A DNA stretch of 60,217 nt from Planctomycetaceae bacterium. GTDB lineage: Bacteria > Planctomycetota > Planctomycetia > Planctomycetales > Planctomycetaceae. Positions 15,413 through 19,002 of the stretch are shown here, one piece after another. Where the stretch lies: assembly GCA_021732995.1 (NCBI GenBank), contig JAKFWA010000125.1, forward strand, positions 1 through 60,217, written 5' to 3'. Numbering within the stretch: the stretch's first letter is position 1; every line of letters begins with the position of its first letter. A model generated the notes under the pieces. It was not told the origin of the DNA. It searched no databases and worked only from the letters and a program-made list of their open reading frames with translations. A program made the position numbers and the translations under genes.

Positions 15413-16333
15413 TCATTGTTCGATGTTTTGCGTGATCATCCCGTAGTGTTCGGGATGTCGGCTGCGAGGATTGAAGACGCCTTGCTTGTAGGTCTGGCAG
15501 GCATCCAGATCGCATTGATGCACGACCAACTCGTCCCGCAGGGTGGTTGATTCGGCGACTACTTCGCCGGACGGTGCGACAATCATACTTCCGCCGATTT
15601 GATCAACACCCTCTTCATTACCGGCCTTGGCGGCGGCAACGACCCACATGCCGTTTTGATAGGCACCCGCCTGCAGACTGAGTCGATGATGGAAGTCTGC
15701 CAAACGATCGGTTTCTGGATACTCGGGATAATGACGAGGTGTGTTGTAACCCATTAGCACTAGTTCACAGCCTTGCAGACCGAGCATCCGATAGGACTCA
15801 GGCCAACGCCGGTCATTGCAGATGAGCATTCCAACTTTCGCGCCGAAAGCTGAAAAGACTCGGAAGCCAAGGTCGCCCGGTTCGAAATAACGCCGCTCCA
15901 GATTTTGAAACGGATTGCCGGGGCGATGTTCGCAATGACCCGGCAGATGAACCTTGCGATAGTGGCCGACGATTCGCCCGTCACGCTCAACAAGAACCGT
16001 CGAATTGAATCGTCGAGTCTGTTCGCCATCGCAGACGAGCTCGGCGTAGCCCAAACAGAAACCCACCTTCAGTCGCGCAGCCTCGTCAAACAACGGTTGC
16101 GTCTCAGGATTCGGCAACTCTGTTTCAAAGTACGAGTCGATCTCCGCTTGATCATCAATCCACCAATGGGGAAAGAACGGCGTGAGAGCACACTCCGGAA
16201 AGACGACCAGCTGACAGTTGCGATTGGCTGCCTGACGCAGGAGTTCGATCAGGCGTGATAGGACTTCCCCTCGCGAACTCGTACGAGGAATTGGTCCCAA
16301 TTGAGCAGCAGCAATCGCCAGGAGTCGCGACAT
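15413..16333 (-). CDS. N-carbamoyl-D-amino-acid hydrolase (carbon-nitrogen hydrolase family)
   Basis: The 306-residue protein has the length and the landmarks of the known Agrobacterium D-carbamoylase. The nitrilase-superfamily triad is at exactly the expected positions: E47 in VVFPE, K127 in YRKVHLPG and C172 in MLICNDRRWPE. YNTPRHYPEYP and FHHRLSLQAGAYQNG are also D-carbamoylase segments. It should cleave N-carbamoyl-D-amino acids to the D-amino acid, CO2 and ammonia in the cytoplasm. I see no hydantoinase or racemase nearby, so a role outside the hydantoin pathway is possible. Start ATG 16333 has GGA seven bases upstream. It is convergent with the PQQ-like gene with a gap of three bases. 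Confidence 0.88.
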   Translation of the reverse strand: MSRLLAIAAAQLGPIPRTSSRGEVLSRLIELLRQAANRNCQLVVFPECALTPFFPHWWIDDQAEIDSYFETELPNPETQPLFDEAARLKVGFCLGYAELVCDGEQTRRFNSTVLVERDGRIVGHYRKVHLPGHCEHRPGNPFQNLERRYFEPGDLGFRVFSAFGAKVGMLICNDRRWPESYRMLGLQGCELVLMGYNTPRHYPEYPETDRLADFHHRLSLQAGAYQNGMWVVAAAKAGNEEGVDQIGGSMIVAPSGEVVAESTTLRDELVVHQCDLDACQTYKQGVFNPRSRHPEHYGMITQNIEQ

Positions 16334-16503
16334 CGATTCGTCCTCTCAAAGGAGACGGGCCACGGTCGGCGAGAAGATACGCCGTCAGCCGCGCCAACCG
16401 GAACTCAACGCCGCTGGGAAGTATCCATTCGTCTCGGGTTCTTTCATTGGCTACCATCTCATCCCCGTCTTTCCCTCCATTGCAGCCGCCAGAGAGACCT
16501 CGC

Positions 16504-19002
16504 GTGCGATTCCGTGCCCCCGATTGTTCGATTGATACCGCGCGGGCGGTGATCTCGTGCGTAGTTTCTTTATTGCTCATTGAATTGTTGCCAGCTGCCG
16601 AGCCCACATTTCAGGCGGAAATTCGACCCATCGTGCAGGCGCGGTGCGTGAAGTGTCATGGTGCCGAGGAGAAGTCGGGTAACATCGACTTCTCCGCAAT
16701 CAACGACGATCTCACGGCGGCACGACAACGCAAGCTCTGGCGGAAAGTGGTTGCGCAGCTTGAAGCGGAAGCGATGCCGCCGAAGGATGCTCAGCAACTG
16801 ACAGGTGAGGAGAAGCGACTGCTGCTCAAATGGATGAAGCGCACGTTTGAGGTCGTCGATTGTGACGATCCGGCCAATCGCGATCCTGGCCCAACGGTGA
16901 TCCGGCGGCTGAGCTTGTCGGAGTACAATCGCACGATTCGCGATCTGCTGGGGTTTGAATTCGATGCCGCCGCGACAGTCGGTATGACCAGCGACACGGG
17001 CGAAGGCAACAGCTTCGGGAATCTGGCAGCCGCGCTGGAGATGCCCCCGGCCTTGCTCGAAAAATACTTCGCGGCTGCGGATCAAATTCTCGACCGGTTC
17101 TTTGGAACCGAACTGAGTTCCACAGTCGATGGTCGCATTCAGGAACAAGCTCGAAACAGTCGCGAGCAGATGTTTCTGCTCAAGCCCGGCGAGTGGCGAA
17201 AGGCGGACTACGAAGTCGCGCCGCCGCAAGGCATGGCCGCACGGGATGCCGCTCAAGCATTGATTACGTCGTTCGCGCGGCGCGCGTATCGCGGACAGAG
17301 TTCGCCCGCTGACGTGGAGCGCCTGATGGCGATCTTTGATCGCGCCACCGCGTTGAAGAAGAGTTACGCCGATTCAATCCGCGTGATGTTGAAGGCGGTG
17401 CTAGTCTCTCCCAAGTTTTTGTATCGCATCGAGCAGAACGCACTGCTGGGAGGGCAAGGCTCCGGCCGAACCGAGGTCCAGAAAAGTGCAGATGGCATCA
17501 AGAACGGCTCAGCGGGAGCTTCGCCCTCCCAGCGTGTCGGCGATCACGAACTGGCGGTGCGGTTGTCGTACTTCCTCTGGTCGAGCATGCCGGACGACGA
17601 GCTGCTGGACTTGGCAGATCGTGGGCGACTGACAGCAACTGGTGCCTCAACTGAATCGGTGAAGTTCAGCGGCAAGACCATCTCTGCCCCTGGATCAGAA
17701 TCGTTTCAGGGCAATAACCGCGACAAGGTGTTTGACGGTGATCTGCTGACGCAACTCGACGGCCCGGACGGCAATAGTCATTGGATCGGGCTCGACTTGG
17801 GTGAAGCCAAACCGATCAGTCGTATCCGTTTCGCGGGTCGAGTGGCTTACGAACAGCGCCTGGTCGGCGGCAAGTTTCAGGCATCGAACTCGCCCGACTT
17901 TAGCAGCGATGTCGTCGACTTGCTGGAAGTTAAACAAGCACCGGCACGGGGGTGGGTGACTCACGACTTCGATCAAGCCGTTGAGCGGCGATATGTCCGC
18001 TACGTGCCACCGAAGAATTCGTTCGGCAACATCGCCGAGATCGAAGTGCGAGGCTCTGGTTCGGGAACGATACTTGAACAACAGGTCCGACGGATGCTGG
18101 CTGATCCTCGCGCGCGATCGCTTACCGACAACTTCGCAGTTCACTGGCTGCAGATTCACAAGCTGCCGGTTGCGCGACCCAGCACTGAATTCTTTCCTGA
18201 GTTCAATGCGAACATCCGACAGGCGATGTTCGACGAGACGACCCTATTCTTCGACACGCTGCGCCGCGAAGACCGCAGCGTGCTGGAGTTACTCGACGCC
18301 GACTACACTTACGTCAATGAAGAGCTGGCGAAGTATTACGGTCTACCCGACGTGAAGGGGAAAGAACTGCGGCGAGTCAGCCTCAGGCCCGAAGATCGGC
18401 GCGGCGGGTTGCTCGGCATGGGCAGCGTATTGGCGGTTACATCGCACACGTCGCGCACCAGTCCGACCATGCGTGGCAAGTGGATCCTGGAGGTCATGTT
18501 CGGCACACCCCCTCCACCACCACCGGCCAACGTCATTCAGATCAAGGAAGAGCCCGGCAAGAAGAAACAAGACGCCCAGACATTTCGAGAGAAGCTGGCA
18601 CAGCACGCTCAAGATGCCTCTTGTGCCGGCTGTCATCGCAAGATGGACCCGCTCGGCTTCGCACTCGACAACTACAACGCCGTCGGCCGCTGGCGCGACA
18701 AGCTCGGCGACCGCGATCTGGATGTCAGCGGCGAACTGCCAACCGGTGAAAAGCTGACCGGCGCCGCCGACCTGAAGCGAATCGTCCTGAGCAGAAAGGA
18801 TGAGTTCGTTAAAAATCTCACCGAGCAATTGCTGACATACGCCCTCGGCCGAGAGTCGGAAGACTTCGACGATTGCCCCGTTCGCCAGATCGCTACTCAG
18901 CTCAAGGTCGATGACTACCGATTTTCAACGCTGGTGATGGAGATTGTGAAGAGTTACCCGTTTCAGTACCGACGCTTCGGTGAGGCAAAGCCGACGAAGT
19001 GA
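16504..19002 (+). CDS. Exported c-type cytochrome of the DUF1587/DUF1595/DUF1592/DUF1588/DUF1585 type, with inserted discoidin-like domain
   Basis: The 832-residue protein has an N-terminal hydrophobic segment, a first heme site C48-V-K-C-H52 (PSCyt-type), DUF1587 (RRLSLSEYNRTIRDLLG), DUF1595, DUF1592 (starting LSYFLWSSMPDDEL), DUF1588 (with a second CAGCH near residue 707) and DUF1585 at the end. DUF1592 is split at about residues 383-520 by a domain like F5/8 type C (discoidin): KVFDGDLLTQLD, WIGLDLGEAKPISRIRF, RRYVRYVPP. An 87-bp palindromic repeat also adds 29 in-frame codons at 315-343. It is probably a surface redox or polysaccharide-related protein; the true function of the family is unknown. 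The start is uncertain: GTG 16504 or GTG 16549. It forms an operon with the next three genes. Confidence 0.85.
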   Translation: MRFRAPDCSIDTARAVISCVVSLLLIELLPAAEPTFQAEIRPIVQARCVKCHGAEEKSGNIDFSAINDDLTAARQRKLWRKVVAQLEAEAMPPKDAQQLTGEEKRLLLKWMKRTFEVVDCDDPANRDPGPTVIRRLSLSEYNRTIRDLLGFEFDAAATVGMTSDTGEGNSFGNLAAALEMPPALLEKYFAAADQILDRFFGTELSSTVDGRIQEQARNSREQMFLLKPGEWRKADYEVAPPQGMAARDAAQALITSFARRAYRGQSSPADVERLMAIFDRATALKKSYADSIRVMLKAVLVSPKFLYRIEQNALLGGQGSGRTEVQKSADGIKNGSAGASPSQRVGDHELAVRLSYFLWSSMPDDELLDLADRGRLTATGASTESVKFSGKTISAPGSESFQGNNRDKVFDGDLLTQLDGPDGNSHWIGLDLGEAKPISRIRFAGRVAYEQRLVGGKFQASNSPDFSSDVVDLLEVKQAPARGWVTHDFDQAVERRYVRYVPPKNSFGNIAEIEVRGSGSGTILEQQVRRMLADPRARSLTDNFAVHWLQIHKLPVARPSTEFFPEFNANIRQAMFDETTLFFDTLRREDRSVLELLDADYTYVNEELAKYYGLPDVKGKELRRVSLRPEDRRGGLLGMGSVLAVTSHTSRTSPTMRGKWILEVMFGTPPPPPPANVIQIKEEPGKKKQDAQTFREKLAQHAQDASCAGCHRKMDPLGFALDNYNAVGRWRDKLGDRDLDVSGELPTGEKLTGAADLKRIVLSRKDEFVKNLTEQLLTYALGRESEDFDDCPVRQIATQLKVDDYRFSTLVMEIVKSYPFQYRRFGEAKPTK
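17446..17532. repeat. 87-bp inverted-repeat (REP-like) element inside a coding sequence
   Basis: Left arm 17446-17472 and right arm 17506-17532 are inverted copies of 27 bases that match at about 22 positions, separated by 33 bases. The arms begin with CTGGGAGGGC and end with GCCCTCCCAG. The element is 29 codons long and keeps the frame of the cytochrome gene. It encodes LLGGQGSGRTEVQ, a spacer, and GSAGASPSQR. I recall similar GGGAGGGC-type palindromes as common interspersed repeats in planctomycete genomes, but could not check that here. It lies in a loop before DUF1592. Confidence 0.7.

Follow-up and report, generated by a model that had tools for sequence, protein, structure and literature searches.

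A REPIN-like element in frame within a planctomycete DUF1592 gene and a divergent RAYT clade as its candidate mover

The window, by which is meant the whole 60,217-nt stretch of DNA analyzed here, is contig C59 of a 9.39-Mb draft genome in 135 contigs from a member of the Planctomycetaceae (GCA_021732995.1; G000 below). The forward strand contains an open reading frame at 16255..19002 for a DUF1592-type planctomycete cytochrome c protein, an assignment drawn from its domains (DUF1592, 1588, 1585, 1595, 1587, cytochrome c and F5/8 type C) and from three orthologues (L072, L073 and L074). Read from a GTG, it specifies 915 amino acids; the true start is uncertain. An AlphaFold model of the protein, with a mean pLDDT of 37, was not used. 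In the linker that follows DUF1595 (residues 241-301) and precedes the F5/8 domain (389-504; numbering from 16531) lies a palindromic segment on the same strand at 17446-17532 (LGGQGSGRTEVQKSADGIKNGSAGASPSQ), and this segment is just as a preliminary description of the sequence had it: 87 nt, 29 codons, with arms that agree at 22 of 27 positions. The frame stays open through all 29 codons, leaving the predicted protein intact, as that description also held. The residue span it assigned, 315-343, depends on the start chosen and becomes 306-334 when counted from 16531.

The arms (17446-17472 and 17506-17532) can be extended to 17445-17473 and 17505-17533, where 24 of 29 positions agree. No other inverted repeat of at least this quality with a gap of 3-60 nt occurs in the window, and none appeared in 20 first-order Markov simulations of it. 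As DNA, the copy folds with z = -3.5. The left REP-like arm, at 17448..17472 on the plus strand, consists of a GGAG foot (17449-17452) and a hairpin (17453-17472); it is the more decayed of the two and is read in frame as GGQGSGRTE. The right arm, inverted at 17506..17530 on the minus strand, is read on the coding strand as GSAGASPS and has an A-T variant at the first inner-stem pair. The spacer between them (17473..17505, plus strand) differs in length among copies of the element, and the core that the window copy has in common with other copies runs from TGGGAGGG to CCTCCCA at 17447-17531.

Comparison with relatives defines what the host gene gained. The segment is absent from all three orthologues (from G073, G075 and G052; 77, 71 and 56% identical), the outcome that the preliminary description had proposed looking for. 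Six loci akin to the host protein, from a scan of genome contigs, are 27-46% identical and were unusable as orthologues. Between the conserved motifs Y-R-[IL]-E-x and V-x-D-x-E-L-A there are 33 codons in the window and 12, 12 and 11 in the orthologues, a net gain of 63 nt (21-22 codons), not 87 nt. The 29-codon in-frame element thus stands, and a net addition of 29 codons does not: the figure is 21 codons, or 22 relative to the third orthologue. What remains of the host linker is 17437..17445 (plus strand; codons N, A and L) and 17533..17535 (plus strand; codon R, preceding V-x-D-x-E-L-A), 12 nt in all against 36 nt in the two closest orthologues. Since 29 codons came in for a net gain of 21-22, about eight of the original linker codons are absent. 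With part of the linker missing, the event is not a plain insertion: at the time of insertion or later, some of the host linker was replaced or lost. No target-site duplication is obvious by eye, at an empty site that is inexact because the linker is partly missing.

The arm is a multi-copy repeat in G000, a second property singled out for checking by the preliminary description. The 15-mer at its core, GGAGSYTCGCCCTCC, occurs 83 times exactly (43 on the plus strand, 40 on the minus strand; none for the reversed control), and a 20-mer with up to three mismatches has 111 matches (control, none). Sixty sites were examined from among the matches listed, one of which (C11:47527) has four mismatches and may be a chance match. 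At 45 of these the arms form an inverted pair, with the GGGAGGG ends always outwards in G000. Commonest are pairs whose arms, mostly perfect, are separated by about 16 nt; one such copy folds with z = -11.6. Copies within a genome have spacer sequence in common, as at C37:60501 and C34:51896 in G000 and likewise in G075. Several intergenic G000 copies (for example L011, L016 and L020) also have common flanks, GCAGTTCG and CGAACTGCG; this sharing indicates that some copies lie within a larger composite repeat.

The structure of the arm can be read from its variants. Across 479 sites, from all loci examined except six distant ones, the consensus is GGAG / GGC GA GGC TCCT GCC GA GCC, a foot followed by an imperfect hairpin whose stems are backed by double changes. 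At positions 10-19, G-C (365 sites) and A-T (86) stand against A-C (10) and G-T (5); one of the collecting seeds had the A-T pair, and A-C and G-T were equally allowed. Positions 11-18 give 455 G-C, 10 C-G, 5 A-T and 9 others, and there the C-G pair was unseeded. The third pair of the outer stem, positions 7-22, is equivocal (C-G 445 and T-A 9 against C-A 8, C-C 8 and T-G 4), and an alternative GGCTC/GAGCC stem is broken by the A variant (88 A-C). The sites share descent, and these counts are not of independent events. A single arm folds no better than its shuffles (z = -0.27), and the case for a REP-like hairpin is therefore the covariation. The foot is nearly constant (G 472, G 469, A 473, G 468), under a site filter that tolerated no more than one mismatch among the four leading bases and so favors constancy.

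The family has several characteristics of REP sequences: a short imperfect hairpin in many copies (covariation over the 479 sites, 111 matches in G000), a mostly extragenic location (four of the 60 G000 sites lie in genes, judged by open frame and codon score) and, in its inverted pairs, the arrangement of a REPIN or BIME. The GT[AG]G tetranucleotide 5' of the hairpin is lacking, its place being taken by GGAG.

A candidate transposase was found through an 800-nt interval between arms, and in G272 a 160-amino-acid RAYT is encoded in this position. In that genome a 283-codon ORF, possibly cargo, separates the RAYT gene from the arms that follow (L270:2800-3651). A profile of the corresponding clade separates its members, at 180 bits or more, from a next group at 107-133 bits and from the remainder below 60, and the grouping is by score; one member, in G198, is split between two frames of about 112 bits each. 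Nineteen clade genes were counted. Their sequences have an HUH motif (HxH) and a predicted catalytic tyrosine (Y...NP), as expected of a RAYT: H74, H76, Y131 and N135 are invariant in 15 of 15 aligned rows, and P136 is nearly so. The profile matches the E. coli TnpA-REP protein 4er8 (E = 3e-12). Unlike known RAYTs, these proteins have scores near or under the cut-offs of Pfam and NCBIfam: PF01797 (Y1_Tnp) matches only 10 of 15 members at E 0.01, the G272 protein reaches 20.8 bits where the cut-off is 23, and NCBIfam REP_Tyr_transpos matches five of five members tested, one of them above its cut-off. The finding of no arms at 34 loci collected with PF01797 was initially read as evidence against a RAYT; it is largely a failure of sensitivity of the Pfam model.

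When arms with up to four mismatches are counted, 15 of the 19 clade genes have them within 400 nt on each side, and two more have them on one side only (L315 and L320, the latter at a contig end). By contrast, no arm lies within 400 nt of any of 34 other Y1_Tnp loci, comprising the four G000 matches and the best 30 of a longer list from 14 of 16 high-copy genomes, several of them cut by contig ends; one, L150, has an arm pair more than 1 kb away. The difference, 17 of 19 against 0 of 34, has p = 5e-12 in a comparison that covered Y1 transposase loci. The two clade genes without arms, L316 (G074) and L343 (G098), have nearby other repeats or hairpins beginning GGAGGGC, for example GGGAG-GGCTCTGG-TCCT-CCAGAGCC, which is what joint divergence of hairpin and enzyme would produce. 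Inspection by eye of the next-scoring RAYT group found GTAG or GTGG-type repeats beside the gene at four of six loci, repeats without such a foot at L345 and none at L344.

The distribution of clade and arm across genomes is consistent with this pairing. In a sample of the class, the exact arm occurs in 14 of 15 genomes with a clade gene and in 112 of the 382 others (p = 7e-7), an association favored by the construction of the profile from high-copy genomes. Among the clade genes newly found by the profile, two of three have flanking arms, one set being three-mismatch variants. No clade gene was found in 15 genomes with zero copies (G088 has only a 43-bit match). The gene is present in only 14 of 46 genomes chosen for at least 10 copies, and was not found in the high-copy genomes G126 and G128 (332 and 344 copies) and G227 (919). 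In G000, a draft of 135 contigs, no match to the clade was found at E 1e-8; the best profile match, at 46 bits, is a different RAYT on C53, and four other Y1_Tnp matches have no arm nearby. The flanking of an HUH-Y1 transposase gene by REPs is thus seen in other genomes only, and the copies of G000, lacking a clade RAYT, look orphaned. They probably are, with a gap in the draft possible, and the enzyme may have been lost from this lineage. Four RAYT-type genes of G000 outside the clade (L123, L124, L125 and L126, on C17, C53, C38 and C100) have inverted repeats of their own on both sides, several with GTAG, so that the orphan system is one of several REP/RAYT systems in this genome.

Of the 170 family genomes 84 contain the exact 15-mer, as do 126 of 397 sampled from the class; copies number from 0 to 919. 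The reversed control gives one or two matches in some genomes (e.g. G183, G218, G271 and G416), so that genomes with one to three matches are not all real. At least 10 copies are found in about 60 genomes of eight families, by hand count. The arm is nearly constant among many genera, and spacers and arrangement differ: there are arms on their own, pairs spaced about 75-80 nt apart (G075) and tandem blocks (G012). The blocks of G012, e.g. C11:80604-80995 and C2:137608-137940, run in one orientation and then the other with a period of about 36-43 nt. At L176 (G128, C4), the arms lie within a direct repeat that has many CAGTGGTCAGTGAAC and CAGTATTCAG units.

The window copy is one of several within genes. 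The four intragenic sites of G000 all lie in genes with a Pfam match: besides the window gene on C59, these encode a ThuA, F5/8C and DUF7133 protein (C4), a Ser/Thr kinase (C18) and an FG-GAP protein (C66). Two more, C2:34908 and C48:469, have an open frame with poor codon scores and were excluded from the count. The C4 gene has a match in 68 of 170 family genomes, and its inserted peptide is absent from all 19 relatives aligned, including the same-genus G001, in a linker that is variable and so less exact. Against G001 the insert is 28 residues and the net gain only eight (our own count on the alignment). In other genomes, 12 of 143 scored clusters were flagged as intragenic, seven further clusters at contig edges having been excluded from scoring. 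Eight were accepted (L191, L193, L194, L284, L285, L300, L307 and L308), among which L193 and L194 have good codon scores without a Pfam match, and L308 has Pfam domains with low codon scores. Dropped were L282, L292 and L303, with no Pfam match and weak scores, and L283, where the element lies ahead of an MFS domain, possibly upstream of the true start. The accepted host proteins include UvrA (L284), an NtrC-type regulator, a matrixin-like protein and an acyltransferase E2. In at least seven of the 10 Pfam-matched proteins (window, C4, L191, L284, L285, L300 and L308) the element lies between two domain matches.

Two reading frames predominate in these 12 genes. The right arm is read as GSAGASPS in seven of eight cases (one-sided binomial against 1/3, p = 0.003) and the left arm as REGEAPAEP in seven of nine (p = 0.008), the left arm of the window copy being an exception; these p values are uncorrected for choice of frame, and the two arms of one element are not independent. 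With the four dropped rows put back the bias is weaker, the right arm giving GSAGASPS in 8 of 12 (LGGSLALP in three, ARQEPRPP in one) and the left arm the EGEAPAEP frame in 8 of 11. Stop codons are not the cause, because by inspection the consensus arms are free of stops in any frame; the bias may instead reflect selection for harmless hydrophilic peptides. That copies are in frame is partly a matter of ascertainment, since an intragenic copy is recognizable only if its frame is open. The proposal that the family can give rise to protein segments is supported by these in-frame copies, which are a small minority of the sites in G000.

Several other accounts of the 87-nt segment were weighed. 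The preliminary description likened it to the palindromic elements of Rickettsia, and such an element, or an ordinary MITE with the arms as terminal inverted repeats of a cut-and-paste transposase, would also explain inverted ends and in-frame entry into a gene; Rickettsia palindromic elements, in PMC10969869, are likewise palindromes read as peptides in unrelated proteins. The likeness in in-frame insertion stands, and it is a likeness by description: nearly half of those elements are in ORFs according to the same source, against four of 60 sites here. The account is quite unlikely given that the arms are also found one at a time and as tandem blocks and that each contains a covarying hairpin; at the window copy no target-site duplication was visible by eye. 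Its other difficulty, the bracketing of a RAYT clade by arms in the comparison of Y1 transposase loci, makes a REP/REPIN moved by a RAYT the closer relation. The suggestion of a mobile REP-like family is supported by the many copies of the arm and by the lack of the segment in the orthologues. The same bracketing weighs against arms kept by selection as host signals of the uptake or terminator type. Inverted uptake sequences in Neisseria provide a precedent for such signals, and the near-identity of the arm across many genera and the mostly intergenic, paired sites of G000 would suit them; the common spacer sequence of copies within a genome and the range of copy number within the class would not, leaving this reading very improbable. 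Finally, the segment could be native linker, its palindrome having arisen by chance or having been selected as an RNA structure in the host gene. Such linkers do vary in length and sequence, and the left arm is decayed, but the right arm recurs at many other sites of G000, the orthologues are without the segment and simulation produced no comparable palindrome, so that a native origin is extremely unlikely.

The best explanation, which has high probability, makes the 87-nt segment one copy of a mobile, REPIN-like element that entered the DUF1592 gene in frame, with the RAYT clade as its likely mover. The resemblance to REP/BIME/REPIN and RAYT systems extends to the short imperfect hairpin with internal mismatches, the 4-nt foot, the high copy number, the mostly intergenic inverted pairs and the bracketing of an HUH-Y1 transposase gene. 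The element would work like a REP/RAYT system and falls outside the canonical REPs in its foot, GGAG in place of GT[AG]G. It also differs in spread: REPs are species-specific according to PMC6006769, whereas a near-identical arm is found here across many genera. PMC6006769 describes a mainly planctomycete class 3 of TnpA-Y1, which, like the present clade, consists of Y1 transposases flanked by high-copy hairpins; its members have Y----Q and a CnGA foot, whereas the clade has Y...N(P) and GGAG, a tetranucleotide absent from the available text of that paper. The same paper reports that REPs within tnpA-REP genes preserve frame. A RAYT gene of G373 (L320:91-603; true start uncertain) resembles these in having an arm in frame near its N terminus, read as REGEAPAEL. 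Insertion of REPs in frame is itself a known phenomenon: REPs and REP dimers inside ORFs, including insertions in uvrA, encode 20-30 amino acids according to PMC3733652, and one copy here is likewise in a UvrA gene (L284). That paper mentions GTAG repeats in the PVC superphylum and sorts REPs by GTAG or CGTC tags, with no word beginning GGAG in its available text. GSAGASPS was not found in the open-licence literature, nor was the arm 15-mer or another account of this repeat among the open-licence matches listed; within the literature searched, the GGAG-foot family, its RAYT clade and its wide spread are new.

By analogy with known systems, the two inverted REP-like hairpins would form one long hairpin when single-stranded, and the divergent RAYT (TnpA-REP, an HUH single-strand transposase), the likely mover, would recognize the GGAG foot and hairpin and move the element as single-stranded DNA. 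According to PMC8266576, when a GTAG foot is altered, cleavage is lost in some systems and redirected in others. A copy would have entered the interdomain linker of the DUF1592 gene, which, with no stop in the arms and 29 codons added, would have stayed open and gained a Gly/Ser-rich stretch, some eight codons of old linker being lost at or after insertion. The peptide is presumably translated and tolerated in the DUF1592 protein.

More tentatively, the class may share a single REP/RAYT lineage in which the guide changed from GTAG to GGAG along with the transposase, and whose stop-free arms repeatedly seed linkers in unrelated proteins, mostly in two frames (REGEAPAEP and GSAGASPS). Mobile DNA would then be a recurrent source of linkers. 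We consider this reading as a whole somewhat less probable than its converse. The present results connect an insertion in a planctomycete protein with an established type of mobile element and with a specific candidate transposase. They open the questions of how a RAYT adopts a different guide sequence yet keeps its hairpin and of whether protein linkers regularly arise from mobile repeats, and they suggest that REGEAPAEP and GSAGASPS in planctomycete proteins can be scars of insertion rather than conserved motifs.
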